Shown here: positions 1 to 57,776 of the stretch, piece after piece | Layout: each line of letters opens with the position of its first letter | Position numbering within the stretch: position 1 is the first letter of the stretch | DNA from: Owenia fusiformis | Lineage: Eukaryota; Annelida; Polychaeta; Sabellida; Oweniidae | Direction: 5' to 3' | Assembly: GCA_903813345.2 (NCBI GenBank) | Contig: CAIIXF020000005.1 | Coordinates: 24,309,375 to 24,373,374, forward strand | Length of the DNA stretch: 64,000 nucleotides | The notes under the pieces: generated by a model | Databases searched by the model: none | Told to the model about the DNA's origin: nothing | Seen by the model: only the letters and a program-made list of their open reading frames with translations | Made by a program: the position numbers and the translations under genes

Positions 1-2665
1 GTTCATTTGTGTGTAAGAGTGATAACTCAAATACAAGTTGACAGATTTGCTTCAAATTCTGTAGAGGTAAGTCTGCTCATGCGAGACTTTTCAATATTGC
101 TGCTCAGTTTTTGATAACACAAATACCTGGTGCCAGATTTGGATCAATATGGTGATGCCATAGAAATCTACTCAAAAAAAGGAATTTCCATCATGACCGC
201 TGAATTCAAAATGGCCACTTCATTTCAATGCCTTGATGCAGGGCTCTGGTCAAGAAGGAATGTTGAATTCAAAAGGCCTATACTTCAGAAAATATGAGTT
301 TTTCTGATAACACTTCTTATGGTACCAGTTTTGGTCCAGATTTTATAGTCATAAGACCTATTCACAAGAAAGAATTTTTAATACATGACGTCAGATCACA
401 TAATTTAGATTTTTCCAAAAGAGGACAACGCTATACCGCTTCCTGGTTATTTCTATTAGGTAATGTCCAAAATGACCAGGTATTTGATGAAATATGTTTG
501 TTTAGTGGGATTTCCTCCGGGGAACTGCTGTTTTCATATATTTTTTCTGAGAGAAATTCTTATATCCTGAAGAAAATGTGCATCTCTTCTACTCTTACCC
601 ATATATAAGCCAACCCCCCTAACAAACACCGTAAAATCAATTTTCTCATTTCTATTCCATGAAATCCCGAGGGTGTAGTAAAAGTCGAGTATTCGCAGGA
701 TGAATTCTAGTTGTTTATCATTCTTACAGGATATAGCTTGATTTCAGAAAACGATTGGATTTCTATCTATTGAGGAAGTGCTTCATCCGGTGCTCTTTCC
801 GCTTTTATTTCACCATGACAAAACCATTGTAATAAATCAAATCCCAGAATTCAGCCATTTAGAATATTGAACCAGATTTACAAATAAAAAGTAATCAGAT
901 TTATTATGAATCATCGATTCGTATGACAGTTGTTAATTTTAATACTGATGAAATGCAGTGCAATACAATATAAAAATACAGTTAAAAGATTGATGACCAA
1001 TATTTTATCCATGGGGAAGTGAACGCATGTTTGACCCAAGTAACAATTCATATCCACATGACTAGACTTTGAGCTGTCTCTCCTACGTAAATATTGATCG
1101 ATTGCACTTCATGATAAAAGTGAAGCATATCAAAATATATTCAATTCGAAGATGCCAATAGATATATAATCACAGAAAATGCATTAGTATTAATTCTATC
1201 AAAACAATAGAAATTCTAGATGTTTCGTTAGCTGCATTTAATGATTACAGTGATTGGCTTGTGAAAGGCAATCTCATACTTCTGCCAGAATTTTATTGCA
1301 AATTATCATGTGATATAAACAGGAAATTGAACCAATAAACAACAAACTGTAGAACAGATTGCTTCCCTTACAATTTATGCTTTATGGTATATATTCTCAA
1401 ACAATCATATACCATTAGAAAGTAATAATCAAAATACAGCAAACATACTAAAAAGTGCTCTCAGATTTTCTATTATGTTTGTGGCGTGAATAACACATGA
1501 AAAACTAAAGAAATGTTTGTGAGTTACCAGGGTAAAAAGCTTTTCTCCATAATTTAAAGAACTGCAGAGGCAATTTCATGCAACACGCCATCCTAAGAAC
1601 TCCAGTATTGATCCCTAAGATACAATAAATGACCGGAAACTGGTAATGTTCTCAGATTGATAGTTTGGAAGTACAAGCTCGTTATCCATCTTTAGCATCA
1701 ATTTTATTTGTGAATTAATTCCTTTACTGACAAGTATGACAAATCACCATTGTTACACTTGCTATGGTTCACCATGACTTGCTGAAGGAATCTCTTGTGT
1801 TTGTTATGGTGACATATACTTATTCGTTGTAATTGTAACATGGTTTTACTTATGTTATGGTGTGGCCTGTGTTCATGAGGTATCATGACTCGACATTATG
1901 ACTGAATTAATAACAATTTGTCATTTGTTCAGTATGTCATCACAATGGCTTAGGATGCTATTATGATGTCAGCCCATAATCAGAATGACCTAAAATCACT
2001 ATGACCTAAAATCACTATGACCTATAACCACAATAATCAGATGGTGACATGATTTATTTGCAAAATGACATGGTAACTTAATGAGTGAGGTGATGGAATG
2101 TGTCAATATAGAGAAAATTGTCATATTTTCTATTACATTAGTTATCTTCATGATATCCATGTCTATATGAATTAATTGGCAATTGCATTAGGTATTATAT
2201 CGTGATATGGAAACAGTATTAATATACACCATTTACTGGATTTGTACTTTTGCTCTGCAATTTCTCCAAATACATGTGTTTAGGACACAAACTATGTATG
2301 AAGTCCAAAAGGGTTAATAAGTCTTAATAATAAGAAATGTTTATGTTTTGTCATTCAAGTTATTCATGATTGGAAAAGGGAGAAAGCAGATATTGCAAGC
2401 ATATTATGTTCATCTCTTTTTTTGTTGGAAGGTAAAGAAAGAACCAATCACTAGCTGTTTCAAAAATGAAATGTGTCTGGAAAAATATGTTTCCATGGCT
2501 AGTAAAGGCTATGATTATGTAACACTAGGATCACGACTGGCGAAACGAACATGGCTTTAAACAGCTTGTCTCAAATTCTTCGCTGGAGATCATTAGCATA
2601 TAATGTTATTTGTTTTTGTACCAACAAATGTTTGTTGATTAACACATTTTCTCATGTAATTTCAG
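1..2665. other. Non-coding stretch, probably intron of the phosphatase gene
   Basis: No exon could be supported. The sequence is AT-rich. A weak direct repeat is visible: the block around 108-152 (TTTTTGATAACAC then a TGGTGCCAG-like stretch) recurs at about 295-340. Between about 1725 and 2060 there are degenerate short repeats built on TATGAC, such as CACTATGACCTAAAAT in tandem near 1990-2025. The exon at 2666 starts in the middle of a codon and of a catalytic domain, so at least one upstream exon must exist; none was recognised here. Confidence 0.45.
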
Positions 2666-3186
2666 AAGAGGTTCGGAGTAATGCTGGTAGAGTACTGGTC
2701 CATTGTCAGGCAGGAATAAGCCGCTCTGCAACAGTCTGTATAGCTTACATAATGCAAACAAAGCAGCACGTATTGGAGGAGGCTTTTGATTATGTGCGAT
2801 CCTGTCGAAATGTTATAAATCCAAATCTAAACTTTATGCGACAATTAATGGAATTTGAGCAGGAGTTATTTAAAGCTGATCTACAAGACATTCCCATGTT
2901 GGCGGTACATTCCCCGACTCTCAAGCTTGATGCAACAATTACCCATACAGAAATCGTACAAACTAATGGACACTGCTCATCTCCATTCTTGCTTCCGGGT
3001 TCCCCTGATTCTGCGTTGAAGACACTCTCTGCACCAATGTCGTGTCCACTTCCAAAATCAACTTCACATTTTAGTTTTGACTTTGGATCTTTAATATCTG
3101 ATCAGCGAGGGTCTGGGCCATTTTGTGGTGTATTTTCATCCCCCATCCAAAGCTTTATGTCCAGTCCGCTTATATCTCCAAGTTGA
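2666..3186 (+). CDS. Dual-specificity (MAP kinase) phosphatase, terminal exon
   Basis: This is the 3' exon (172 codons plus stop) of a cysteine-dependent dual-specificity phosphatase of the MKP type, which dephosphorylates Thr and Tyr of MAP kinases. The signature HCQAGISRS is encoded from 2701, giving the catalytic Cys (2704-2706) and phosphate-binding Arg (2722-2724) of HCX5R. The following AYIMQTKQHVLEEAFDYV and SPN-like INPNLNFMRQLMEFE match the end of the DUSP catalytic fold. The exon is preceded by TGTAATTTCAG and starts with two bases of a split codon. After the domain comes a Ser/Pro-rich tail ending in SSPLISPS, reminiscent of the SPITTSPSC end of vertebrate DUSP1/DUSP4, so the C-terminus looks complete. 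The general Asp and the kinase-binding rhodanese domain would lie on exons outside the window. Which DUSP it is cannot be settled. Confidence 0.9.
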
Positions 3187-13733: not shown

Positions 13734-13739
13734 GAGAAA

Positions 13740-15771
13740 CAGAGCTGTCAAGTGTCCCGCGAATGGCGGGATTATCCCGCGAATTTGATCAAAATTAGGC
13801 TAATTCGCGTGTCCCGCATTGTCCCGCGAAGTCCCGCAAAATGTGGCTTTGACCTCCGCGAATTTCCGAAATTGTTGCAATCCCCTATATTTTGATTATC
13901 TTATCTTATATAAGAAGCTAAGTTTTTGCACTTTTGAGGAGTAAAGTTTACCTAATTTTAAGTACCTAGCATGCTGTTGTTTGGTATCAAAATAAAGGGG
14001 AAGGGTTCAACTTTCATTTTAATTACGAAAATAGGGATGTAGGTCACAAATAGTTCCAACGTTGGCCTTTTTACTACCCGTGTGGCCTTCATCTCAGAAC
14101 TGAGCAAATGTTAGCAAACGCGAGTTACAATAAATGGACGCTGATATCTAGAAAGGGTTTGTATAAAAAACCGGGTACCGGGTAGTAAATCCTCCATGCT
14201 GGGTTCAAACTTGGTACCCGGTACCCGGTCAAAAAAAATGGGTACCCAAAAAACGAAAAATACGAATATATAACATAATTAGATTATGAGAAAACGTGTA
14301 AGATTTGTTTTGAATTTGCAAAAATGTATGTAACATGATTCAAAATTGAGCTAGAAGCTTCAAATAAAAAGCATATTTTAAGGCACTTTTCTTCCTCTAT
14401 CGTTACGGCCATATTTTCATTGGTTATGGGGGGGTGCGATCGCACCATCGCACCCTCTCCTGGCTATGCCTATGACATTGTAAGACATAACAATTTACAA
14501 TTCAGTGGACATTTTGTCATAAATTGGGATAACTTAAATTATGATTAATAATCAAAATCTTACACGTTGCATCATGCAAATTAACACACGTCACCTCTCT
14601 GCTAAAGCAACGATAGTTATTCACAGATTTAAATCATAATCAAAACAATTCACGTACCAACCATACGAACTATTGAAAATAGAGTAAGATTGATTTGTCT
14701 TGTTTTTCAAATCGTCTTACAATGTCATTGGCGTAGCCAGGAGGGGGTGCGATCGCACCCCCCCCCTTCATTACCAATGGAAATATGACCAAGATCATAG
14801 AGGAAGAAAAGAGCCTTAAAATGCTTTTTATTTGAAGCTTCTAGCTCAATTTTGAAGGAAGTTACATACATTTTTGTAAATTCAAAACAAATCTTACACG
14901 TTTTCTAATGATCTAATTATGTTGTGTATTCGTATATTTCGTTTTTTGGTTTTTTTCGACCGGGTACCAAGTTTGAACCCAGCATGGAGGATTTACTACC
15001 CGGTACCCGGTTTTTTATACAAGCCCTATCTAGAAAATTAACCTCATTCCCTATAATTTGATGTAGATTAATCGAACCCCTATATCATGGGCTTTCAATT
15101 GAAAGCCCATGCCTACAGTATATGAATAGGTACATTTTAATATATAACATTATGGGGGTAAGCGTTTCATAGTTGGTCACGACGCCAGAAGTGCAAAGTA
15201 TTGTTCCGAATTTTTGAATTTCGTGTTAGATTACGGTAATCACACCTGAAGCATGGTTTTTGTTTTTGATAAATTACAATAACGTTTAATAATATTCCTA
15301 TGCGTATTTTGTGAAATTGTGTTGACGTTTATTTAAGTTACAATGTAACGGTGCATTATATTTGATTAATCAGTATCTGAAAGTTTGATTTAAGTACTTT
15401 TACACGCTTTTACATTAGTCCCAATCACGCAAATCCCTTGAATGTCCCGGGACATCCTGCAAATTTAGGTGGATGTCCCGCGAAATCCCGCAAATTTAGG
15501 GCACTTTGTCTAAAAAATCTGTCCCTCTTTGAAGTTTTTGGTGGTACACCTGTTAACTGTCCCGCAATTAGGGTGTTTGTCCCTCGAATGGTCCCGCGAA
15601 ATCCCGCGAATTTGATAAAAAAAATCTCCTATTAGCGTAATCACGCAAATCCCTCAAATGTCGCGCAAAATCCCGCGAATTTGGTAGATGTCCCGCAAAA
15701 TCCCGCGAATTTTGGGCACTGGGTCTAAAAAATCTGTCCCGCGAGAAAATCTTTAGGGGTTGACAGTACTG
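13740..15771 (+). mobile_element. About 2-kb TIR element with 6-bp TSD, copy A
   Basis: The outer borders are CAGAGCTGTCAAG at the left and TTGACAGTACTG at the right (complement CAGTACTGTCAA), flanked by GAGAAA on both sides (13734-13739, 15772-15777). A second, inverted copy lies at 21248-23184 with its own 6-bp TSD. Both ends carry clusters of TCCCGCGAA/TCCCGCAAA words (13750-13860; 15440-15745), probably subterminal binding repeats. The interior contains a nested hAT-like element (14154-15027). No transposase gene is visible, so it is non-autonomous. The superfamily is uncertain; 6-bp TSDs are reported for IS3EU and Dada, among others. Confidence 0.75.
14154..15027. mobile_element. Nested hAT-like palindromic element (874 bp)
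   Basis: An exact 8-bp TSD ATCTAGAA lies at 14146-14153 and 15028-15035. The long TIR begins AGGGTTTGTATAAAAAACCG (right end complement AGGGCTTGTATAAAAAACCG) and continues through repeats of GGGTACCCGG and a shared CTCCATGCTGGGTTCAAACT. The whole element is nearly palindromic. The inner part has a second mirrored pair, GGTGCGATCGCACC next to TGGCTATGCC at 14430-14475 and GGCGTAGCCAGG next to GGTGCGATCGCACC at 14730-14760. Confidence 0.8.
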
Positions 15772-15851
15772 GAGAAAGTTGTTACTTTCGATCATGATAA
15801 AGGTCCTTGAGAGCATGAATCAAATGTCAAATAAACACAACCTACCTCTTA

Positions 15852-17680
15852 AATGTAGTAGCACCGGAAGTTTATGACGTTATACCCAGTATTTTCCGCA
15901 GGAGATTTGTAAGTACATGTACTCATTTATTTCAACGTTTTGACAGAATATGGTCCTATCCCTTTCGTAGAAACATTGATAATACCATGCCGATATACCT
16001 CTAATATCACTTCGTCTGGACATTTTGTCTGAACATGGTCTAAATCTTCTTAAACCTTCTAGAAAGCACGACAATTTCTTGAAGAACAATGATAATTTTT
16101 CACGAAAATCATCATAGTTTCAACAATTTTAGCCCTATCATCTTTAAATATTGATAAGATTAACAATACAATTCTTACATATCATCCAGACACTTCAGTT
16201 TCCCAAATCAATGAAAGAATTCCGGGGAAATTAATTTTTCTTTGAAAGTCTATGATGTAATATAAAAGGAGTACGACGTTCAGGGAATTAAAAATCTACA
16301 CTGAAATGTCATATACCTCCTTTACAGCTGGGCAGCAAGGCCCCTAGTTTCAATTGTCTACATTGTTTGGCATTAAAATGAGGTATTCTTCCGCGGAGAG
16401 AAAATAGATCATTGATTGGATTTCTGTAAAAATGACAGCCTGTTTCAAACTAAGTTTAAGGGTATAAGGAATTTTTTTAAATGTATATTTATTCAATATT
16501 ATGTGAGAGTATAGTCTCATGCGTCGATCTGATGTACTTTTGAACGAATATCTTATTCATGGACGTTTCTGTGACGTATTTCCATATGGACCAAATACGA
16601 TATATTTTTTAACCAAAATAACGCTTGAATCGCAAATTTTGCTGGGCCGTTTGATGATAACGTTTGTTATATTTTATCATATTCAGATATGTGATAGCCC
16701 TAATGACGCCGGTTCTTTTCCACCTTGTGGCCTATTCAAAATCACAATATGAGTTGGCAAGATCTGACTTTGAAATTGGGCTTCGCAATTCATACAATTT
16801 CATTTTTTATTTTGACATGAGTAGAAATAAAGGTTTTAAACTCTACCAGAAACTTACAGAAAGTCTAGGAAAGCAATTTATTTTAAAAACATACATTCAA
16901 ATGCATCTTTGCTGAAATTTCTAATGTTAGGTATTAAAGCTACTCACTTTTATCCATGTTTTACTGCAGACGATGATTATTTGCGCTGTAGAAAAACTGA
17001 ATAATTTTTGAGCCAAAAATAAGTCTGGGCCGTTTTATGATAACGATAATTTCATTTTTTCAAATAAGTGTTTTTTTATAGTGCTGATTCCAAATGTTAT
17101 TGCTGTCTCAATAATCAATTGAAAGACGCAGAAAAATTGGGGAATTTCAATCATGAAGATAGGTGTAAAATGACAGGTCCCCAATCAATTATATACGGCG
17201 CCATCTTTATTTGCATAGTTCAAGGTCACTGAAATATTGCTGAAACGTTCAGTCTTTTCAGTGATATTATGCGATAATATGGCTCAATTAGGTATACTTT
17301 CAAAGAAAAGTTAATTTCTCATAATTCTTTCATTGATTTGGGAAACTGAAGTGTCTGGATGATGGATAAAAAATGTACAGTTAATCTAATCAATATTTCA
17401 AGATGATATAGAGTCAAAATTATAGAAACCACAATGATTTTTGTGAACAATGATCATTTTGTTCAAAAAATTGTCGTGCTTTCTAGAAGGTTTGAGAGGT
17501 TTTATACCGTGTTCAGACGAAATGATGAGACGTAGTGATACTAGAAGTATATCTGCATGGTATGGTCAATGTTTCTATGAAAAGGAAAGAACCATATTCT
17601 GTCAAAATGTCGAAACAAATGAGTACATACAAATCTCCCGCTATACTTATATGACGTCAAAACTTCTGGTGCTACGATGT
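15852..17680. mobile_element. Long inverted-repeat element (arms about 390 bp)
   Basis: The arm 15857-16255 (GTAGCACCGGAAGTTTATGAC to CTTTGAAAG) matches the complement of 17290-17679 (GTAGCACCAGAAGTTTTGACG outward) with substitutions and small gaps. The centre (16256-17289) is unique apart from two direct repeats of GGGCCGTTTKATGATAACG (about 16648 and 17031). Similar small open frames lie in the two arms (minus 15880-16089 and plus 17450-17707), as expected from mirrored sequence. The TSD could not be fixed. Confidence 0.65.
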
Positions 17681-17707
17681 ATAGGAAAATGGGGTGTGAT
17701 AAAGTAA

Positions 17708-19593
17708 TTTAAAAATATCTATGAATTTTAATCGCTACTTGGAAAATAAATTCTCTTTATCGTCTTAAAAATTCAACTTTTTTATGAAGAAAAAACATTT
17801 ATTCTCAATTAAAGGGGCAATAAGGACTGTAGAGAAAATAGGAATGTTTTTTCTTTTTTTCTGAGCTATCAAGGCAACATTTGGTTTAACATCTTCTTTG
17901 ACATACTTATTTCCTTAAAATGTATGGATAAATTATCAATTTCAGCATTAAGAAGTGTAAATTCAGTTCAAAGCTTCAAAAAAGGGGACTTCCACTTTTA
18001 TATTTTTAAAATCCACCATGTTTCAAGAGGAATATCAGCTAAAATAATGTTTATCTAGGGGGTTTCTTTGTAGATAATAAAAATAGATGTTAGTATTGAT
18101 GAAATATCCAAACTTAAATATATTTTGACACTGGTCCATGATCTTTGATCGTTGAATCGTCTGCACTAATTATTGCACCTTTAATTAGGGTATAATTTTT
18201 TGGTGACACCTAATAGACTAATAGATGGTTTATGTGCAATAAAGCTGTAGTAGCCTCTTGTAATTTAAAAAGTTTCGTTCATATTTTAACAAATCAAACA
18301 TTTTCAAAAAACACAATGCAGAGAAACACCAAAATAAAAGAGGTCTAACATTTGTTAGCCAATAAAACTACACACAGTCCAAAATCTATAAAAGTTTTGT
18401 ATCTAAAATATTATGAATGCATTTTACCATGCCATCTTTATTTTAAAATTATTTCTATTGGCCTTTGCCTATGTATTTTCCATATAATATTGCACTATGG
18501 TCCTTTGATTTCTTACTTTTTAAAGGATTGATTGACTCCACAAAGTGATTTTGACTGATCTAATCTACCTATTCTATTTAATCTGATCTATCTGATCTGA
18601 TTGATCTATCTGATCTTATCTAATCTATCTGAGCTATCCATCTGGAATCTGAGTCTGAATTGAACTTGTTAAATTTCCAATATGGTGTTATACATGTACT
18701 TATACTTGCTATTACAACTTTACCTGTATGAGTATTGACAAGGGTGACTATGAAAGTAGGTAAACACTACTTGATAAAACTATAAAAAGCAAGGTCACAG
18801 ATGAAAGAAGTATTCATGTGTAAACATTCCTATGCTATTTCAAAACATATATTGATTTTCATTTGTATTAGTCTGCAAGGTACTCCATATTAGCTTCACT
18901 CATATAGTGGACAATATCATATATCCTTAGGTATTATGATCAAAGGCAGTCAAGAATAACAATGATGAATATATATACGAATACGAATATAACAATATTG
19001 GTCTAAATTTGAAAGGGTTTATGTACATGTACAACAAAATATTCCAAAATACAACAAACAGGCAACAAACGCACTTCTTATCAAGACAGCAGATAACTAC
19101 ATAAAGGATGTGATAGTAGGATATATGTAATGTTCCAGAGTTTCATTCGGTGTTTCTTGACACTACAATGTGACACTACAATCTGACACTACAACGAATA
19201 TGACTGGACTCGTGACACCTGTGCATATATTAGGATTGTATATTCTGTTATTATCAGGTACCTGTACTAAGTGTACTTAGTCATATGAAGCTAATATATT
19301 GGCTGACAAGATATGTAGCTCAATCATGAGTTTGTATTATTTCTAGTGATTAGGGTGGGTTATATGGTGAATATACATTTTCATGTATGACCCAGTGTAA
19401 TATGATCGCAGCTCAAAACCATCATAGAAAATATACATTCATTTAAAGAATCATCTTTTCTAATTCATGGGAATGGTAGAGTCAATCTAACTGATCATCA
19501 GAGATTTCCAATCTTGAAGGAGTATCGGGGTTATTCATTATATTAACATGAATTGAAACCAAGACTTATATAACATATTACTCTATATTCCAG
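17708..19593. other. Non-coding stretch upstream of the membrane-protein exon
   Basis: The upstream exon or exons encoding the signal peptide of the membrane protein at 19594 were not recognised. At 18555-18660 there is a degenerate pyrimidine-rich microsatellite of TGATCTATC/TAATCTATC words. Confidence 0.4.
18555..18660. repeat. Degenerate CTGATCTAT microsatellite
   Basis: Imperfect tandem copies of the 8-10 nt words CTGATCTAT, CTAATCTAT and CTGAGCTAT are seen. Confidence 0.6.
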
Positions 19594-22500
19594 TTGGCAG
19601 CACTGAGGCACGTGGAAAGTGCCACTTTACATGCCCACGACCAGGGGAGCCTGAACATTATACGGTATGCTGCAGTAATACCAAGAATGGCTATACGGAG
19701 GCATATTGCTGTAGTGCATACATGTAAGTACTTAATGCTGAGAGAAATAATATAAAGAAAACAAAATGGGCTTTGAGTAAAAAGAGTAAAGTTATAGGCT
19801 TAAAAACATTATGAATCGATAGAAATACAATGTCATAATAACAGGCCTGTCAACTTGGAAACACCTAACATGAGTGACTCCCGGGGAGTAACTTATAAAT
19901 GGGGGGTAGGTAGTATGTATCCAACAGACCGAATATGATATTCGGTCTGTTATGATTGATACCCCTGGCATGGAAATCTCGGCGATATTTTGTGCACATA
20001 AATATCTCGTTTATTACAAGAATGTTCACCTTGAAAATTGGTGAATATGTTGAAAAGATGTTCATCTTAAACTAGAAGCAAAAATATTTGTATAAGGCGG
20101 GTACAAGTTGATATAAAATAATGAAATGTTCAGACTCACCAAAAGTTCAGGATGTGTTCATAAGTACATCGCGAAATCAATGTCAAGGACGTTTTGAGTT
20201 CACGAGATCCAAACGAGATATGCAAATTTTTGAACTTTGACAACACATGACCACTTGATTACCTCGGCCTTCTTCATGAATATTTCCGCTCTATTTACTA
20301 TAAATGACGAGATTAATCGGGATAATGATAATAAATGACTAGATCTAATAAATTCCCGCACAAATGGAATTTATCAATACGCTTCCGTAATGTTGCTCCG
20401 TCAGTTCCACGTGTTATTTGTTTACAAATAGACTGACGTCACTGGCTAAATCTCGTTTATCGTGAGAATTGGCATTGCCAAAATGGCTTGACCTAATCAA
20501 TGGCTTCGCTACAAGAAGCGTCTGTACATTTTATGAATATCTTCAGTAAGAGGACAATATACGAAAAAATAATATTGTAAGTTCTTTATAAGGTAATCAT
20601 TTTATCATTAAACAAACTTATTTGAAACATTTATACAACACCACATTTTACAATAGGTGACTTACAGTCTGAATTTATTCAGACGAAGGATACAGTCTAG
20701 GGGGGTAGGTACAAAACATTTTGAAGCAATTGCGTGACATATACATAAATTTCGAACCAAATGCGTGACATACGGAATTCCAGTGAAATATCCAAATTCT
20801 TTTTTTATGTATTGGCATTCATGTTTTTCAAGTTCTTCTTTAGAAATATTTTTGCTTGACAATTTTCAGGTATAATGCGTATTTGCCACATATTCTGTCA
20901 CGCACAAAAAGCTGGTGTGACTTCAATTTCTTCAGCAAATGTGTAACAAATACGCAAATTGCGGGACAGTTAGACGGCCTGCACTAATCATGGCATGATT
21001 GTGGTATTAAAATGTTTTCACATTTTCAATCCACCTTACTGCTCTGGTCCCAGAATTGTTAAAACTGGGAGTCAATGTGAGACACAAAAGGATGATGCTC
21101 TCCCGCATCACATGTTCTTATTTCTTATCCAATGCAATGCTTGTATTTAGGGTTGAGTTAGCATTAAAATCATGCGGGCCGTAGGGAGAGGGGGTTATGA
21201 GGGTTCATGCGAAATCTTGACTCTGACTAAAAAAGATGAACCCACCTCAGTACTGTCAACCCCTAAAGATTTTCTCGCGGGACAGATTTTTTAGACCCAG
21301 TGCCCAAAATTTGCGGGATTTTGCGGGACATCTACTAAGTTCGCGGGATTTCGCGGGACATTTAAGGGATTTGCGTGATTGCGCTAATAGGCCAACTTTT
21401 TTTCTCAAATTCGCGGGATTTCGCGGGACCATTCGAGGGACAAACACCCTAATTGCGGGATAGTTAACAGGTTTAACGCCAAAAACTTGATAGAGGGACA
21501 GATTTTTTAGACAAAGTGCCCTAAATTTGCGGGATTTCGCGAGACATTCACCTAAATTTGCAGGATGTCCCGGGACATTCAACGATTTGCGTGATTGGGA
21601 CTAATGTAAAAGCGTGTAAAAGTACTTAAATCAAACTTCCAAATACTGATTAATCAAATACAATGCGCCGTTGTATTGTAACTTAAATAAACGTCAACAC
21701 AATTTCACAAAATACGTATAGGAATACTTTTCTAGATAGGGTTTGTAGAAAAAAACGGGTACCGGGTAGTAAATCCTCCATGCTGGGTTCAAACTTGGTA
21801 CCCGGTCGAAAAAACCGGGTACCCAAAAAACGAAATATACGAATATACAACATAATTAGATCATTAGAAAACGTGTAAGATTTGTTTTGAATTTACAAAA
21901 ATGTATGTAACTTCCTTCAAAATTGAGCTAGAAGCTTGAAATAAAAAGCATTTTAAGGCTCTTTTCGTCCTCTATCATCATGGTCATATTTCCATTCTGA
22001 GGCCCAGGAATACGTTAAAAATGTTTAAAAAGTCCCCTAGTGTACTGAGTTGGTAATGCGTGGTGTAAACATGTATATAAATAGACTATATTACTTACAT
22101 TGAATAAGAATACTACTGATTTCTTATTAATGATTGTATACCTGAGCCTCAGTTTCCATTGGTAATGAAGGGGGGGGGGGTGCGATCGCACCCCCTCCTG
22201 GCTACGCCAATGACATTGTAAGACGATTTGAAAAACAAGACAAATCAATCTTACTCTATTTTCAATAGTTCGTTTGTTGGTACGTGAATTGTTTTGATTA
22301 TGATTTAAATCTGTAAATAGCTATCGTTGCTTTAGCAGGGAGGTGACGTGTGTTAATTTACATGATTTTGATTATTAATCATAATTTAAGTTATCCCAAT
22401 TTTCGACAAAATGTCCACTGAATTGTAAATTGTTATGCCTTACAATGTCATAGGCGTAGCCAGGAGATGGTGCGATGGTGAGATAGCACACCCCCCCCCC

Positions 22501-25468
22501 CCCCATAACCAATGAAAATATGGCCATGACGATAGAGGAAGAAAAGAGCCTGAAATATGCTTTTTATTTGAAGCTTCTAGCTCAATTTTGAAGGGTACAT
22601 ACATTTTTGTGAATTCAAAACAAATCTTACACGTTTTCTCATAATCTACATGTAATTATGTTATATATTCGTATTTTTCGTTTTTTTGGGTACCCGTTTT
22701 TTGACCGGGTACCAAGTTTGAACCCAGCATGGAGGATTTACTACCCGGTACCCGGTTTTTCTACAAACCCTTTCTAGATATCAGCGTCCATTTATTGTAA
22801 CTCGCGTTTGCTAACATTTGCTCAGTTCTGAGATGAAGGCCACACGGATAGTAAAAAGGCCAACGTTAGAACTATTTTTGACCTACATCCCTATTTTCGT
22901 AATTAAAATGAAAGTCGAACCCTTCCTCTTTATTTTGATACCAAACAACAGCATGCTAGGTACTTAAAATCAGGTAAACTTTACTCCTCAAAAGTGCAAA
23001 AACTTGGCTTCTTATATAAGATAAGATAATCACAATATAGGGGATTGCAACAATTTTGGAAATTCGCGGAGGTCAAAACCACATTTGCGGGACTTCGCGG
23101 GACATTGCGCGACACGCGAATTAGCCTAATTTTGATCAAATTCGCGGGATAATCCCGCCATTCGCGGGACACTTGACAGCTCTGCCACCTTTTCCAGCAA
23201 TTATGCAAATCCTCCAAATTTTGAATTATTTTTTTGCAGTATTTTAGTAATTTGTCATTTTTGATTACCTTATATGTTCAAGGTATATGCAAAGATGGAA
23301 ATAAGTGAGATAATAGTTTTGCAAGGCCTGAAATACTGTTCTAATACCATTGAAAGGAATTCAATTGTCCAAATAAAGCATACTTACTGAGTAGAAACTG
23401 TCTGATTGTGACATAACATCAAAATTTTCCCTAATTTATGATATAAATCAAAGAATTTTGAACATGTGAAAATTCAGTGATGCAATACATGTGATGCACC
23501 AAAGTTCTGAACGCTATAAAACTCATTTTTGGTCAGGAGTCACTTTAAAAATTGTTTTCTTTCATTGGAGCTCACATTTTTGCTAATTTTTTATCTCCTA
23601 TTTGTTTGAAGAGCACATTGTGGAAGTAATATAAAATACAAGATAATTGAATTACAACCTACATATATGCTTGAATTAAATTGGGGGAGTCTTAATGTCT
23701 GATAATGTCCTTGAGCTATTTCTTTTGGATTTATTTTTCTGACCTATCAAGAAAGTAGTAAAATCATAAAATTTAAAGGAATTTTAACAGGCCTTTGTTG
23801 AAAAAAGTTCTAGATTTTTGCCCCTAAATGTTCCAAATGAACGAAATTGTCAAAAATTGAGATATTTCAATGGTCTTATGATTTTGTTCTTGCAAATGTT
23901 TGGCAAAGGCAAATCTTCAAATTCCAGCACACTGGCAAAAATGAATAAAATGGACCAAAATTAAGCTTTGGCAAAATTTAAGCAAATTTGGCAAAGTTTA
24001 AGCAAATCTGGCAAATTTTATTCAAATTAGTCATAGATTAAACATATTTGAAAAAGTTATAACCAAATTCACTGAAAAGTGGCTCTAAAAAAGATTTTTG
24101 CCGAAAATATTCGAACCCCCTCCTGTCAAATTCTGGCTACGCCACTGAAAATCCTTTGGAATCTATTAGAATCCTTTACGGTTAAAAGGGAATGTAAAAA
24201 ACCCAAAATGTTTGGTTCGATAAAACTTTAAATACAAAGAATAGAGAGATTTTCGCACATAAGTGAAAGTACAACTTATATGTATACTTTAAAGGGTCAT
24301 GTCGAACTATTATATTTACTAAAATCAATTTTAAATTGTACTTAATGGAACATAACAATTCCTGGTATAGAAAAGCTCCATCAACTAGAGACTGTGAATG
24401 CACTGTCATCTGCATGTGTAGATTATGCACATTATAATTAAATGCTTGTTTCCGTGTCCTAGTAGTTGTAGTGTATTATAAACATGATCCTTTAAAGTGA
24501 GTCATGATCCTTTAAAGTGAGTCATTACATAAACAAGTTGATTATTTCAAAGTTTTCATGATCAGTATAAGTTCAATGAACTTATAAAACGGTATATATA
24601 AGTAGATGATAAACGTATACAGTTGGACCTCCATATAAAGCTTTAACTACATGTACGTGTATGGAGAAATTGACTGCAAGCATTTTTTTTAATTAATTGG
24701 CTGAGTAGGAACAGTATCCAATCAAATACTTTAACCATCAATTTGAACCAGTAGGTTCTAGCAATTCCTCGAAAAGACATACAGGTTGTTTCGTAACGAG
24801 TATCTCCAAAAAGTCGACTTGAGAAGAGAGATCTATAAGGTCTATAACACATGTACTATATTTGAGCCTATTTCATTCTAGACAAACACATTTAGATCAA
24901 CTAAATGAAGAGGTTATGTATGATAAATATACATAATGGAGTCATAATAGTCAAGCAATTACGAAATTGCCTCTGGCCATTATATGTCAATCGGCTCGTG
25001 ATTGATCATTCTGAACAGCACGCTAGTGCGCCAGTGCATTCAAAATTGGCACTCAAATTTATTACTACCCTCTTCTACTAAATTTTTAGGTTAGCTGGAA
25101 TCCTTGGAGGGGTATTCGGAGTTCTGCTTCTGACTGGTGTAATTATTGCAATTGTTTGCTGTTGGCTGGTCAAATCGGGACGATACAAGTGTGTCAAATA
25201 TCAAACAATGCACAGAAGGGGATATCGACTACAGAAATGCACACCAGCTGAGAGAAACCAAATCCAAACTGGTGACCAAAATCCTCAAAGTAACAACCCA
25301 GTGCCTTTACATAGCATACATAATTCTCCTTTTCAATATCAAACTCAATATGGACTTGATTCCCATGGTTTTACTCCAAACCAGGACCCTCCACCAAGTT
25401 ATGACACAGCTACTATGCAGCCTAAACCTCAACAAGAAAAACAAGATGACAAGCTTCAGAGATTTTAA
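19594..25468 (+). CDS. Cys-rich single-pass membrane protein (Shisa/CYYR1-like), two 3' exons
   Basis: Exon 19594-19723 (after CTATATTCCAG; donor GTAAGT) encodes a Cys-rich ectodomain segment, with KCHFTCPRPGEPEHYTVCC followed by a YCCSAY motif. Exon 25090-25468 (after TTTTTAG) joins in phase 2 and encodes a transmembrane helix of about 24 residues (LAGILGGVFGVLLLTG onward). A short basic stretch and a polar Pro/Gln-rich cytoplasmic tail follow, with DPPPSYDTA, a PPxY motif for WW-domain partners, then the stop at 25466-25468. Paired cysteines (CC...CC), one TM helix and a proline-rich PPxY tail are the plan of Shisa, CYYR1 and VOPP1-type proteins, which act in receptor trafficking. Exact family assignment is inference. 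The signal-peptide exon was not found. The 5.4-kb intron contains copy B of the 2-kb element. A candidate poly(A) signal is at 25566-25571. Confidence 0.72.
19923..19951. repeat. Perfect 14-bp palindrome with 1-nt centre
   Basis: Arms AACAGACCGAATAT and ATATTCGGTCTGTT lie either side of a single G. It could form a hairpin or bind a dimeric factor, and has no known match from memory. It lies in the intron of the membrane-protein gene. Confidence 0.6.
19952..21247. other. Intronic DNA, nothing recognised
   Basis: No coding signal. There is a minor direct repeat of GCGTGACATA (about 20731 and 20762). Confidence 0.35.
21738..22771. mobile_element. Nested hAT-like palindromic element, copy B
   Basis: This is the same element as 14154-15027. 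TSD TTCTAGAT lies at 21730-21737 and 22772-22779, the complement of ATCTAGAA in copy A, so both copies descend from a single insertion event. It is lengthened by a further nested 156-bp element plus its 8-bp TSD; without these it is 870 bp. Confidence 0.8.
21997..22152. mobile_element. 156-bp MITE nested inside the nested element
   Basis: An exact 8-bp TSD TTTCCATT lies at 21989-21996 and 22153-22160. The TIR is CTGAGGCCCAGG at the left and CTGAGGCTCAGG as the complement of the right end. It is absent from the matching place in copy A. The first 80 bp of a second copy occur at 55298-55375. The 8-bp TSD suggests hAT. Confidence 0.8.
23191..25089. other. Intronic DNA with repeat remnants
   Basis: No exon seen. 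At about 24108-24148 there is a GAACCCCCTCCTG stretch next to CTGGCTACGCCACTG, a decayed terminus of the TAGCCAG class of elements. Near 24487-24525 a 19-bp unit (GATCCTTTAAAGTGAGTCA) is duplicated in tandem. Confidence 0.4.
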
Positions 25469-27780: not shown

Positions 27781-29191
27781 TACAATACCCGGGAATTTAT
27801 CGGTTCGTGCAGTACTTGTTTGTGATAGCGCCCTCTGTAGGTCACTGTGCTTAATAGCCTACAGTAATACGGGGTAGGATATCGGGAATTCGGTCAGTTT
27901 CTATCCGTCGATTACGCTATGAATTGAAGCAAGTGTGACCACTTTATCCACTTAAACAATTTGATAATTGATTAAATCTTTAAACAAAATCGATAAACGC
28001 GTTATACACTTCCTATCTCCTTAGAAATTAGCATGTATTTATGGATTGTGTTTTCGAACAAGGCTCGACCCAGACCAATAGGGAAATCCTTATGCTAATT
28101 AGTATGACGTCATATTTTCCTGGGGAATCCTAGATTTCAAAGCCTCAGTCTGTTATTGTGTCAAATGTAAACGCTCTTTTGCAGACAGAAAATTGACAGA
28201 TTAGCTTTTAACTTTCAGCTTTTGATGTTAAATATTCTGTATTTCTACCGGACTTCTTGCTGAATATCATATAATGTTATAACTTGATTTGGACCATTGC
28301 CTGATTGATCATTCTAAAATTTTGATTGTGATTCATGATTGATTGGCGAGAAAAATAATTCCTCAGTATTGTTTTCCAGCGAAGTCAAAATGTTACAGCA
28401 TGAGTTATAATGTCGAGTTTGCATCATGTTAAATTCTGCTAGTGATTAGAAGTCCATACACAAGCATACACATAAGAGACAAACACAGGCCGTGGATGGA
28501 AATATAAAACTATTTAAGGCACAAACTGGTATTTAATAGACCGATAAGTAGTGTCTGCCATGTATTGAAGGTAAACAATCTGCATTATTAATGTTACTTC
28601 TATCAATACATGGATTGTGCAATGGAAAAGCAATGGCACAATCAAAAATGTGCATATCAATCATGAATATCTCTCGGTTCAAAGCTTATTTCCAACAGAA
28701 TCGTGTCAAAATATGTGTCTGAGTAACAGTTATACATTATAAGATCGCAAACTCTTACCAATTATCAGCCGAATGGCTCATTTTCAACGAAATGTCCTTA
28801 AGACAACAGCCCTGGGTCGCGCCTGAGACCAAAAACTATTTCAAATAGCCCTCCCCTAAATATATTGGATAATCACATTCATGCGTGCGCGCGCAGCTCA
28901 TCCACTGAACGAACGAAATGCCACTTCCCGCTGAAATCACCGGGTATTGATCTTTCCCTTGCTTCGACCAAAAGAGCCATAAGAAACAAAAAGACCTCGT
29001 TATGCCAACTAACCCAGACAATCGGCGGTTCCAATATATTAGAAGTTACATTTTGAGTTCTAGAATGCATTAAGGTAGGTTTCTTAAGTGGAAGGGGTGT
29101 AGATAATTCTCCCAAGTTGTAATCGTACAGGCAAATGTATGCGCTCAGTACAGGACTATAGTCTGGAACGGGATAAACTGTGGCAATATCC

Positions 29192-29617
29192 CAGATGCGA
29201 GTAGACAGAATCTTGATTTACGTCTTTAAAAATTCACAATTCAGTCAAACTGATATCATATTTGGAATCTACATGTAAAATTACATTCAGAAATGTGGTT
29301 TTGAAAAGAGTTAATCAACTTTGAAAATTTAATTTTCTTTGAAAATATGACTTCGAGGTCGGGGAGATTCCCCATAGACCCCATGTTGGAAAACCACAAA
29401 AAGTGAAATATCTTTTCATGTGTTGGGCAGATAATATTTTCTTTTACTGGAAATATTTTAATTTGTATAACTATCAGATACATAAGGGTAATATGAAAAG
29501 TGAACCACTAAATCTGATGCATATTCAATTTTAAGGTAATTTTGTAATACCCTGCCATGTTAATTCCCCCGAATCAGCCACCTGGTGGCGTAACTGGTAA
29601 CTACCTACTCGCATCTG
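29192..29617. mobile_element. 426-bp MITE nested in the right side of the composite element
   Basis: A 13-bp perfect TIR CAGATGCGAGTAG (29192-29204) and its complement (29605-29617) bound it. It interrupts sequence that is continuous in the opposite arm (near 27200-27235). The TSD is unclear. Confidence 0.65.
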
Positions 29618-30119
29618 AGTAATTGCTATAAAATCGCAAATATTTAGCGACAGGGTACTTACCTGCATATTGCAATCGCTAAAAATTGTGATGCTTTGTG
29701 AATAAGGCCTCAATTCTGCAAAATAAACTTGAATTAGCCGTGGATTACTTCCTGCGAAAGTTATGTGGATTTTGATCACGGACATCTAATACGCAGTTCT
29801 TCGAACTGCCCTGGAACTATATCTATACCAGCAAAGTGTTTGAAATCCAGAATTTCCGCCAGAAACATTCTCTCTGACTGTGATTTTGATATAAGTTTCA
29901 AAATCTAACATGGCTCTGGAAGTTCAGGAGTCAATGTTTTTTCTAGACCACTTACCTTGCCAAGTGGTTTTACCACATTTGTCACATTTAGCTGGAAAGC
30001 ACATCTTCGCTCTATTCTAAAGTGGTCCTTTGTGAATAATAACAGTCTCCAACCTTGTCTAGATCCTAAGAATATCGACAAAACGTGACAAAAAATATCT
30101 AAACGTGATTCAAGAGAAT

Positions 30120-30210: not shown

Positions 30211-30536
30211 GTGAGAATATTTCAGGTTTATTTTTATATATTTCCATGTTTGATGTACGATTTAGCACAATTTGCTTTTTATGTATAGTGGAAAGTAATG
30301 ATTTGTTTTAGATCAAAATGAAAACTCGCCAAAGTATGGTCAGATTCAGCTCAAATAATAATTAAAAAATCGATTCCATCGATTTTCATGATTTTTTAAA
30401 AAAATTTTAAATTAATTTTGGATTTGCTTAGGCCTAAGACCTTCCTCTACTCTACATACATGTATATCTTTTTCAGATCAGAAGTGCTGAATGAATATTA
30501 TATGAAACTGCAGTGAAAGCAATTAAACCAACAACA

Positions 30537-33500
30537 ATGATCAAGTTTAGCGTGCCAAGTAAAAGTAGGGTGTCTTCAAGACACAGAACAGTTACCATCC
30601 AACAACCTGTGGTGAAGAAGAGGAAGCCACCTCCTACTAACCCACCATGGTATACATGGCCAGATTCAGAGATGGGACTAGAACGATTGTATGATGTAGA
30701 CAATATGGACCATATTCCTGAAGATAAACGCCTTGATCAGTTTCAGCAGCGAGATCTTCATAAAACTCATTTTTATAAAACTGCTGCTAAAATTTTTGGT
30801 CCTCCTAAGTCTCGAAAACGTGTCATCATTGCTCCTCCTATGGAGAAACCTGTTAGGTTTGCCAGATTGCAGGTAGATGATGATGAATCATTTAAACCAC
30901 TCATTGACAATGATCCTGACTTGGATGTACGTCAACCTAGATTTCCAACTTCCATGACATCTGCTAATACCTCAAGCACAGACAATACTAAAGTTAGTCA
31001 AGATGAGATTAATGACTACAAGGACTGGATTACCAAAAGAAAGAAGTTCAGGAAAGATATTGATCAAATGGGACTTCGTGAAGAATGGCTAGTCAACAAA
31101 CCCAATAAAACTGCATTAGAAAAAAGAGTACTTAGAAGAATGATTGCCGAAAGATTGCCAAAACCAGAGACTCCAAAGGAGGAAGAAGATACAGGAAAAG
31201 AACCTGAGATTACTGAGGAACTTCCAATTGTTCATATGCCATCACCATTAGCTCTTCAAATAATTGAAGAGTTCTTGCATCAGAAAAAGATGAGACTATA
31301 TGATTTGTTCCGACGTATGGACAAGGATGGTGGGGGAAAACTCACTCGAGAAGAATTTAGGAATGGGATCAGGAATGTAAGTTGACTACATGTTTTCTTC
31401 CACCCTAGAATCATAACCGTGCCATGCAAAACCAAAGGTCATTTTTGAATTTGAATTCATTATAATTTATGGATTATATTCATATACATTACCTTTAGAA
31501 TAAAAAGGAATATTAAATAGTTGTTTACTTCATTTTTAGTGACACAGTAGGCATTTAACCTTCACCACCACTTTTTTCATATATGAAAATAGTAAAACAT
31601 GTCCAAGGATTTTAGATTTATTTGTTGACACATTTTGCTGTGACACAAAACATTATTGATATCATCAAATGAAGACATTTAACCGCAATGAGTATTTAGG
31701 GGTAGCCCATAAACTTTATGATGAAAAGATGAACAAATAATTTATATCACTAGGATATCATGAACACCAATACTGTACGAAGAGTGTAAATGGTTCAAAA
31801 TCGATAAATGTACATTTATTCTTTCTTTTTGCTCATCAACAAATGATCTTTTTATTTAGGTTGGAATACCAATATCTGATCTGCTTCTGGAGGATCTCAT
31901 CATTGCTCTGGATTATAATTTTGATGATGAAATTGAATTTAAAGAGTTGAATATGGGAATGGAGCAATGGAAGAAAGAAAAGAAGGAAACAAAGAAGAAA
32001 AATATGGTTGCTAATGCCAGTGGTGAGCTTTATTGCATATTTGCATTTTGTTTACATGTAAAATAGTTTATGGCAAGCTTGTGTTACATTTGATTTATTT
32101 TTTTATGTGAAACATATGTTTGATCGGAATTACTAGGCATTTTAATGTTTACTTTAAAAGTTTAGATATTAGCTTTAAAATTCACTAGTGCAACATGTAT
32201 AGTGCATTAGAAATCATCTGCAAATGAAAATTGTCTTGAGTCATTAAGAATTGTAAATCAATAGACCTGTCAATATGCAGTGTATTAATTACTAAAGGCT
32301 ACATACCAACTGAGTTGTGTCTATATTTTCCATATCACCATCTATATCATTCGACCATTCACAAAATAACATGTATTTCAGGTGGACATAATGGTTCAAA
32401 GCCTCCTACCATAGTCAACATATCAAAGAGTGTTGATAAGGTGCGTCCAAAATCTGGGCTCAGCACCATCAGTGATAAGTCTGGTTTGGATCGATCCCTA
32501 CTGTCCACTCCCCCTCCTGATACAAGAGCTGAACAAATGGTCTTATCATCAGAAGAGGCAATGTTAGATCTAAGAAAGAGAGACAAGGCTGCCTTAGCTA
32601 GGTTGATGGGCAAGAAAGTGGTAAGAATTGTTAGATTGAAACAATATTTTCATGTGAAACTGCATTCTATAATATTTTGCACTATGCTATAAATATGTTC
32701 AATGTTAATCTTGTTCCAAGTTTCTTTCTTCTTTTTGCATGAATTTGTAAAAATCAGCATGTATTATCTAATTATAATATATATTTGTGCTAATAATTAA
32801 TTGTTGTTCAAGAGTGATCATAATCATAGAATGATTCTAAAAATGATTTGTTTTAAATAATTGCTGATCCTCACCTAGTTACAGAAATGGGTGACAATAT
32901 GTGTCTAACATCAACTGCATGTAATCACCTTCCTTTTGATTGAAATCAATGTGTTCTGTCTCAACCTAAAATTACCAAATCTACAGGATGTCCCAAATGC
33001 TATTTAAGTGAAGAAGAAGGGAGAGAAGAGTTGAAAATAAGTTTTAAAAAACTGTCACAATTTAACTCTTTTTTTTTGCTTTCATCATTTGATGTCTCGC
33101 CTATTTTCTAAAAAGTGCTAAACTTCTGATTTAATTTCAGAATGATCTTTTGATTTTTAAGGTAACCTTATTTGGCAATAGTTTTAAAAATGTATGACCA
33201 TTGGTATGCTTTTTGAAAAGATTGCTTCCAACATTTTGCATTCTCCATCTAAAACTACTTCTTACAGTAATAAATAGCCACTTTTGGGACACCCTGTATT
33301 TTAACAACACAAAGAATCTTGTATTTTATTATGGCTACTTATTTTGTAGCATGTATTCAACACATAACAGAACTACATTAGAAAGTTGTGTTTATTTTAA
33401 GTCATGATTTTGAATATTTCTAACCAGGATTCAAGACCTAATAGTTCTTCAACATTTGAGGTATATATCAAAATTTGTGTGTCAGAGTGATGCTTTATTA

Positions 33501-55811: not shown

Positions 55812-57286
55812 TTAAATTCTAATAGAAGATAGTATGAACTGTTGTAGTCGTTCTACTATTTTTATGTTGATTTGCTGGTCTAAGTTCTTGTTAAGACCTG
55901 TGATGGTTTGTAAGTCTATGGTTGGGTTGTGGTTGGCTCCTAGTAGTACAGTGTCTATAGCTGCTAGCATAACCTCCCTTTGTGTACTGTATTTGCTGCA
56001 CTGAAACAAGAAATGATGCAAAGTTTCTGGTGAATTACAGTGTTCACAGTTAGGAGAGGGGAGATCAGGGTTGATTTTGTAGTAGTGGCCATTGAGACGG
56101 GTGTGCCCAGATATAATTTGACTGACTTTTGTCTGACTGTATCTTTTACCCAACTTTACTGATTGTGATTGTACTTTTACTTGTGGGATAAGGTTTTGAA
56201 TCAAGTTGACTTTATCAGAGTAGCTATACCTAGTTTGCCATATATCAATAGACTTATTTTTAATTGATTTGTAAGCCATTGTTTTTGTTGTTTTTGGGGG
56301 TGGGAGGGTTGTGGCTGTTTTAGCAGCTTTTTTGGCTATCTTATCAGCTACCTCATTGCCCTCAATTCCTAGATGCCCAGGTACCCAGAAGATTTCTAAG
56401 TTTTTCTTTAGCATGGAAAGTGATTTGCAAGCTTTTCTTATGCTAAAAATTTCGGGCATCATATTTTTGAGTTTAGTGTTCAGAAAGGCAGTTGTTATAG
56501 CTGGTTGGCAGTCAGATTGTATGATAACTTTATCTGACGTCCTTGTTTTGATAATGAATTCCACAGCCAGCTTGAGTGCAGTGACCTCTCCAGTATAGTT
56601 GTTGCCCTGACTGGCTACTGGTTCCTCCAGGCATACCGGATTGCTCTTTAAGCCACTGATGTAAATAATGGCTGAAGCACCATTTGGTCCTGGGTTGCCC
56701 TCAGCGGATCCGTCTGTGAAGATAACAGTCTCCGAGCCATCAAGATCATTCAGCAAGTTGTTGATGCGATGAGATTGCTCGGATTTAGATCTGCTGAAAT
56801 CCTCGGTATGCACGATGGCATCAGCTGGTAAAAAGGTCTCTGCATCTGCTTGGTAGTAGCTGTGTTTGACGTAGTTGGTTGGTTTGGTTGGACAGTTATG
56901 CAATCTGAGTCTAGCTGCTAAGATGTTAAAACAGGTAGGCTTTCTTTCTTGTTTTCCAGATTCTGCCCAATGATGGTATTCTTCAGTAATAGGGTCAGTT
57001 ATATTATGAGATAATATTCTGACAGCCTCTTGAGCTTGTCTGGCTCTCAGGTGTATGTCTATGGGAAGTACTCCAGCCATCACCTCCAGTGATTCTGTGC
57101 TCACTGTTGATAAACATCCTGTTGTTTTTAGGAGAGCAGCACGTTGGACTGAAGAGTAAGCTTTTGCTGCTTTGTCTGTGGCTGTAGCAATAGCACTTAT
57201 ACCAGTTTCAAAGTGAGGGATCACCAGTGTCTTATAAAGTGTGGTGAAAACTTCCTCACTGCACCCTCTGGTGTTCTATGTGGCCC
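55812..57286 (-). mobile_element. 5'-truncated non-LTR retrotransposon (LINE) with RNase H
   Basis: A continuous minus-strand frame runs over 1.4 kb. It begins in the end of a reverse-transcriptase domain (LYKTLVIPHFETG) preceded by TRGCSEEVFT. An RNase H domain follows: FTDGSAEGNPGPNG (first Asp), TGEVTALKLA (Glu), IQSDCQ (Asp), and WVPGHLGIEGNEVADKIAKK (His and last Asp). It then has NCEHCNSPETLHHFLFQC, the C-terminal zinc-knuckle-like motif common in RNase H-bearing LINEs of the I/Jockey/Tad type, and a stop at 55812. The 5' end is cut (in-frame stop just upstream), as usual for LINE copies, so it cannot move itself. The intact frame suggests a fairly recent insertion or strong similarity to an active copy. 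Confidence 0.85.
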
Positions 57287-57776
57287 GTCTGTCCCAGGTG
57301 GCGCCATCGAGCTTTAACTATTTAAGTGTTTTTTATTTTGCTTAAAATGTTAAATGTACCTGAACTTCAATATGTAAAACACGCATACATTATAATACGG
57401 GCCTGTAGCCAGGGGGCGGGGGATCGGGGGGCGAACCCCCATCACCCCTAATATCTCCTAAAAATGCTACGTTTTCGAGCATGTAATATCTAAAATCTTT
57501 AATTTTACAGCATTCTGCATTTTGAGTGTCCGTTTTTTAAAAGCAAAACCATTATATGTAGATTGAGCATAAGAGATCTGGATGAAGAAATGAATACAAT
57601 GCATTGAATGATTGCACTGTTTTCATATGTAAGTAGGGTAAACAGGGTTCTCTGGTCGATCTGCATTCGTAACGTTGGTAACATACATGTAAACGCATCC
57701 AGCCTGTCGCATTCACTTTGTTGTTCAGGTCGTAAGCTACAAATTGGAGTCTATTTGTGTAAATCATAAAAGGGTG
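57287..57776. other. 5' flank of the beta-lactamase-like gene
   Basis: It contains a GGGCCTGTAGCCAGGGGG terminus (about 57394-57420) plus a GGGGGGCGAACCCCC hairpin, remnants of the CAGGCCCGTAGCCAG MITE family at 37219. No promoter element was supported. Confidence 0.4.

Follow-up and report, generated by a model that had tools for sequence, protein, structure and literature searches.

Two 2-kb elements, inverted with respect to each other and 5.5 kb apart in the genome of Owenia fusiformis, hold the same second element at the same internal site. The question is whether the inner element was inserted once and the resulting composite then moved as a unit, or whether local duplication, repeated insertion into one target or loss of an original segment account for the arrangement. 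The window analyzed is a stretch of 64,000 nucleotides (C5:24309375-24373374), and genome-wide searches were made in the 498-Mb genome.

Two composite elements in the window

The composites are called A and B, the inner element is called the passenger, and target site duplications are abbreviated TSDs. Features are listed in window positions.

13734..13739, + strand: left 6-bp TSD of copy A, GAGAAA
13740..15771, + strand: composite copy A, outer element CAGAGCTGTCAA...TTGACAGTACTG, ends and TSD read
14145..14154, + strand: left 10-bp TSD of the passenger in A, TATCTAGAAA
14155..15026, + strand: passenger in A, 872 bp, GGGTTTG...CAAGCCC
15027..15036, + strand: right 10-bp TSD of the passenger in A, TATCTAGAAA
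15772..15777, + strand: right 6-bp TSD of copy A, GAGAAA
21242..21247, + strand: 6-bp TSD of copy B, CCACCT (window strand)
21248..23184, - strand: composite copy B, 1937 bp, second composite lineage
21729..21738, - strand: 10-bp TSD of the passenger in B, 3' side in the orientation of the element
21739..22770, - strand: passenger in B, 1032 bp with the third-level element counted in
21989..21996, + strand: TSD of the third-level element, TTTCCATT
21997..22152, - strand: third-level 156-bp element CTGAGGCTCAGG...CCTGGGCCTCAG in B, 8-bp TSD AATGGAAA (TTTCCATT on the + strand)
22153..22160, + strand: TSD of the third-level element, TTTCCATT
22771..22780, - strand: 10-bp TSD of the passenger in B, 5' side in the orientation of the element
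23185..23190, + strand: 6-bp TSD of copy B, CCACCT (window strand)

Both copies begin CAGAGCTGTCAAGTGTCCCG and finish TTGACAGTACTG. Their borders, strands and outer TSDs are as described in an earlier analysis of the window (the sequence-only reading), and reading of the two copies bears out that one passenger is common to both and occupies an identical internal site. The duplication flanking the passenger is likewise the same in A and B, but measures 10 bp (TATCTAGAAA); the 8 bp reported earlier, ATCTAGAA, are its middle.

A and B had been viewed as a related pair. They belong to different composite lineages, differ by 4.4% in the outer part, and represent independent landings; since they fall in different lineages, the inverted pair reflects chance proximity. 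Copying of one composite as an inverted segmental duplication would fit the orientation and the short distance, and would be expected to leave identity past the TSDs, as the sequence-only reading had pointed out. Similarity ends at the element borders, the 500-base flanks of A and B having one 12-base word in common and nothing else, the two 6-bp TSDs differ, and B is nearer in the outer part to L022 and L063, which reside on other contigs (1.0 and 1.5%, respectively), than to A. The probability of a local duplication may be considered negligible.

Ends, copy number and target sites of the outer element

The outer element is bounded by CAG...CTG (end sequences CAGAGCTGTCAA...TTGACAGNNCTG). The 24-base left end has 497 matches in the genome and the 22-base right end 484, both at up to 2 mismatches (reversed controls 0 and 1, respectively). 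The 27-base left junction between outer element and passenger has 303 matches at up to 3 mismatches and none in the reversed control, so that chance is excluded; a family of this scale was beyond what could be seen in the window. At least 32 genome places, A included, match A over 2027–2032 of its 2032 bases, as counted among the 40 candidates scored out of 2750.

TSDs were analyzed in 49 copies: 40 two-ended copies (20 with paired exact ends, 20 among the best matches to A), A and B, L063, and six passenger-free copies. The TSD measures exactly 6 bp in 43 of the 49, a share valid for intact copies only, as the sample was chosen by intact ends or similarity to A. All 43 sequences are different. 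Presence of the 6-bp TSD in copies elsewhere had been singled out beforehand as a check on the borders, and the result does not contradict them. In the remaining six copies the duplication measures 5 bp (two copies) or 7 bp (one), or 6 bp with a mismatch (one), or features three mismatches (two). Target sites show a weak palindromic preference, with A at position 2 in 23 of 43 and T at position 5 in 20 of 43. The outer parts of A contain 11 copies of the motif TCCCGCRAA, all in a single orientation (4 to the left of the passenger, 7 to the right; mean 0.01, maximum 1 in 1000 shuffles), which might conceivably serve as putative transposase-binding sites.

Among 20 left ends sampled which had no exact composite junction or exact right end among the matches listed, 3 belong to composites, 12 to a sister subfamily whose left part is longer by about 110 bases, as seen in 300-base pieces ending short of the passenger site, and 3 to copies which have a different interior in common; L112 starts like the sister subfamily, and L119 fits none of these groups. 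Two copies with the different interior were read further, and measure 1946 and 2526 bp, with TSDs TATAAA and TGATTA. An open stretch of 105-108 aa common to both was considered as a transposase and discarded, since it matches no Pfam family significantly (best E 0.16) and its changes are not biased by codon position (8, 6, 7).

Three left and three right ends at C1:9687830, 9692519 and 9697208 are spaced exactly 4689 bases, probably because a larger segment was duplicated in tandem; of these copies, the first was read (L011). An element with related ends, CAGGCCTGTCAACTTGG...ACAGTTAGACGGCCTG, lies between A and B at 19842-20981; its flanks, TAATAA and CACTAA, match poorly. A 494-bp relative is found inside L018, with a 6-bp TSD, ATGCTG, assigned by eye. 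Further insertions of 0.4-1.7 kb are present in composites L003-L010, L018, L021 and L022; those at A530/531 in L005 and L006 hit the same site and are different elements. A 434-bp element at 29187-29620 of the window is 86% identical to an insertion within L022.

Passenger-free copies

Empty sites establish that the passenger is an insertion into the outer element. A strict 31-base pattern of the empty site occurs at 2 genome places. A looser 24-base pattern, with no more than 2 mismatches allowed, occurs at 22, of which 16 were fetched. With 3 mismatches, 533 more matches are obtained; the 78 of these listed correspond to one variant, and the six read all belong to a different 465-bp family. 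In 13 of the 14 sites read (L043-L056) position A415 is joined directly to A1288/1289, and the target is present once. Both outer ends are retained in seven of the 14. Five of these measure 921-1117 bp, one measures 2193 bp because of another insert, and one, L055, measures 564 bp; the latter, flanked by TATGTA and CATGTA, is below the length filter of the TSD test. Exact 6-bp TSDs flank four passenger-free copies (L043, L045, L048, L049).

A tree was built from 5 passenger-free copies, L049 being left out, and from 26 of the 43 composites, chosen for their lack of large inserts other than the 156 bp in B, L022 and L063, and 434 bp in L022. The passenger-free copies form one group with support 1.00. 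Their mean distance from composites is 7.9% in this set, and 7.1% when 43 composites and 6 passenger-free copies are compared.

The excess of composite junctions (303) over close passenger-free sites (22, with 2 mismatches at most) would be accounted for if the passenger had belonged to the outer element from the start, and short copies were deletion derivatives. This is highly improbable, as short copies feature the target once and no remnant of the passenger, and the passenger is found alone elsewhere with 9-10-bp TSDs of its own. A search allowing 3 mismatches detected no restored site next to the right flank proper to the composite, both matches to the strict pattern having another flank, and no excision footprint was detected in a search limited to exact flanks of the main lineage. 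There is thus no sign that the inserted passenger has left again.

The 465-bp family (L057-L062; ends GGTATGAG) is 82-88% similar to segments A223-410, A1288-1346 and A1380-1523 of the outer core. Its 4-bp duplications, assigned by eye, are TTAA in L061 and ATAA in L062. The outer core might thus represent an earlier insertion of a 465-bp element of the TTAA type; its right border coincides with that of the 465-bp family, and the left border does not.

Movement of the composite as a unit

Outer parts and passengers have diverged in parallel. Mean pairwise distances among 43 composites are 2.7% for the outer part and 3.1% for the passenger, and the two sets of distances are correlated (r 0.77, 0 of 5000 permutations). 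The correlation persists without the B lineage (r 0.84, 0/5000), in 23 copies not chosen for similarity to A (r 0.55, 0/5000), and in the 26 copies without large inserts (r 0.91, 0/5000); it is just 0.32 (265/5000) in the 22 near-identical copies of the main burst taken alone. The value of 0.77 supersedes that obtained from a poorer alignment of all 43 composites, in which rows with large inserts were misaligned (r 0.12, 163/2000 permutations).

Many outer copies might have received the passenger independently at a single hot spot, and its target includes TCTAGA, which resembles a target motif of some transposons. Descent is indicated, however, both by the parallel distances and by an internal deletion, A689/A1054, common to L013, L014 and L016, whose outer TSDs differ; moreover, seven passenger copies residing elsewhere have unrelated targets. 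Recurrent insertion is therefore very unlikely. Insertion of the passenger before the composite transposed as a unit, generating 6-bp TSDs, had been proposed from the window, and is strongly supported by junction counts, passenger-free sites, outer TSDs and parallel distances.

A third nested element

The 156-bp element and its TSD, TTTCCATT, are found in B at the positions reported earlier. The element had been attributed to B alone; its junction is found without mismatch at four genome places, that is in B, at C1:48389164 (L022), at C8:12510593 (L063) and at C8:15718079 (L064). Three of the carriers have both outer ends and different TSDs: CCACCT (window strand) in B, CACTAT in L022, ATAATC in L063. 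In L064 the right outer end is present, and the left end is not recognisable in the 3.1 kb fetched. Since one junction is common to carriers with different TSDs, the third layer too moved with its carrier. Approximately 250 bp of outer sequence to the right of the passenger, present in A, L063 and L064, are missing in B, the only one of the four carriers with this gap.

Classification of the layers

The passenger in A has inverted arms of 332 and 313 nt, 85% identical, and lacks any open stretch as long as 120 aa. Its ends resemble GGGTTTGTAGAAAAAACCGGGTACC. Seventeen candidates have been identified outside known composites (L065-L069, L086-L097), and for seven of them the piece read includes both ends. 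Counted from the constant GGG...CCC ends, three of these seven have an exact 10-bp TSD, two an exact 9-bp TSD, and two a 9-bp TSD with a single mismatch.

The passenger had been labelled a hAT element with an 8-bp TSD, an assignment which the 9-10-bp TSDs and the GGGTTTG ends do not sustain. Extending the ends by A and T gives 8-bp matches in the composite and 3 of the 7 copies elsewhere, and L069 and L091 also match at 8 bp when only the left end is extended by a base. With fixed AGGG...CCCT ends, however, 5-7 mismatches are found in 4 of the 7 copies, whereas 9 bp at GGG...CCC give 0 or 1, and in the other 3 copies 10 bp match exactly. L066 and L093 have T, not A, before GGG, and the same T after the right 8 bp; present on both sides, this base belongs to the target. 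The hAT assignment, which needs different ends in different copies, is unlikely.

We infer the superfamilies of the layers from ends, TSDs and repeat structure. Because of the 9-10-bp TSD and inverted arms longer than 300 nt, the passenger fits Mutator/Foldback elements such as Tm1 better than canonical hAT elements. Tm1 elements reside in root-knot nematodes; according to PMC3169594, they feature foldback-like inverted repeats of variable length, as do the long arms of the passenger, and TSDs of 8-10 bp, mostly 9, a range which includes that of the passenger. Elements nested in Tm1 are also noted there. The likeness to Tm1 is one of repeat structure and TSD. None of the 4 MULE-domain loci read, out of 8, has the ends of the passenger.

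A separate stretch between A and B, at 15857-17675, features inverted arms of 170 nt (86% identity) and 103 nt (84%), and ends near AGTAGCACCGGAAGTTT / AACTTCTGGTGCTAC.

Any hAT-like character would lie in the outer layer, the CAG...CTG ends of which are presumably compatible with hAT ends. Both hAT6, a hAT group (Repbase Reports 2007, as cited in PMC12730594), and IS3EU (PMC12730594) generate 6-bp TSDs, as the outer element does. The fungal IS3EU families reported there end TAYGG..CCRTA, unlike the CAG..CTG of the outer element. Because of TSD length and ends, the outer element fits hAT6 better than IS3EU, and may be regarded as a candidate hAT6 member, in a genome where our searches yielded no coding one. 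Eleven of 138 matches to the hAT dimerisation domain were fetched, and none has CAGNNCTGTCAA pairs. Four of the hAT-domain loci, L071, L073, L076 and L079, feature other end pairs with 8-bp duplications; that in L073 may also be read as 6 bp, with one more base at each end.

Amplification of the composite

We consider it highly probable that the outer element is non-autonomous and was mobilised in trans, that the passenger hitchhiked with it, and that the composite founded a large family. The outer element would be a cut-and-paste DNA transposon (CAG...CTG, 6-bp TSD), and a transposase acting in trans would need only its ends. One member of a passenger-free line of about 1.1 kb gained a fold-back, putatively Mutator-like passenger, duplicating the 10 bp TATCTAGAAA. 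As both outer ends stayed intact after the insertion, the 2-kb composite may still have been recognised by the transposase, and become the founder of the family. One sub-lineage later gained the 156-bp third-level element and carried it to new sites. The passenger would be cargo, and no case of its leaving again was found; we infer that this cargo is neutral. Alternatively, the long palindromic insert may have made its carrier multiply better, for example if it promoted replicative gap repair once the element was excised, or hairpin formation by the excised element. This would explain why composite junctions far outnumber the close passenger-free sites found, and is quite unlikely.

Insertion of one element into another, as in nested MITEs and transposons within transposons, is a general phenomenon, and events of this kind are in principle known. 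In contrast to ordinary nested elements, the nested form has multiplied here, and a sub-lineage carries a further layer. A literature search for co-amplified nested elements retrieved no direct precedent, which is not proof of absence; PMC3049150 only mentions bacterial repeats inserted in one another. The composites provide a clean, countable case of transposon hitchhiking over two nested layers. A single genome contains the passenger-free relatives, the independent TSDs and a readable order of events. The family is a natural test of how much cargo, a long palindrome included, is tolerated by a transposase generating 6-bp TSDs. Repeat libraries could merge two or three unrelated elements of this sort into one 2-kb family.

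Other features of the window include an open frame of 487 aa at 55812-57275, which has an RNase H domain and is probably a retroelement. Open frames with a beta-lactamase-family domain (57693-58067), a dual-specificity phosphatase domain (2515-3186) and an EF-hand (30495-31385) are probable host exons.
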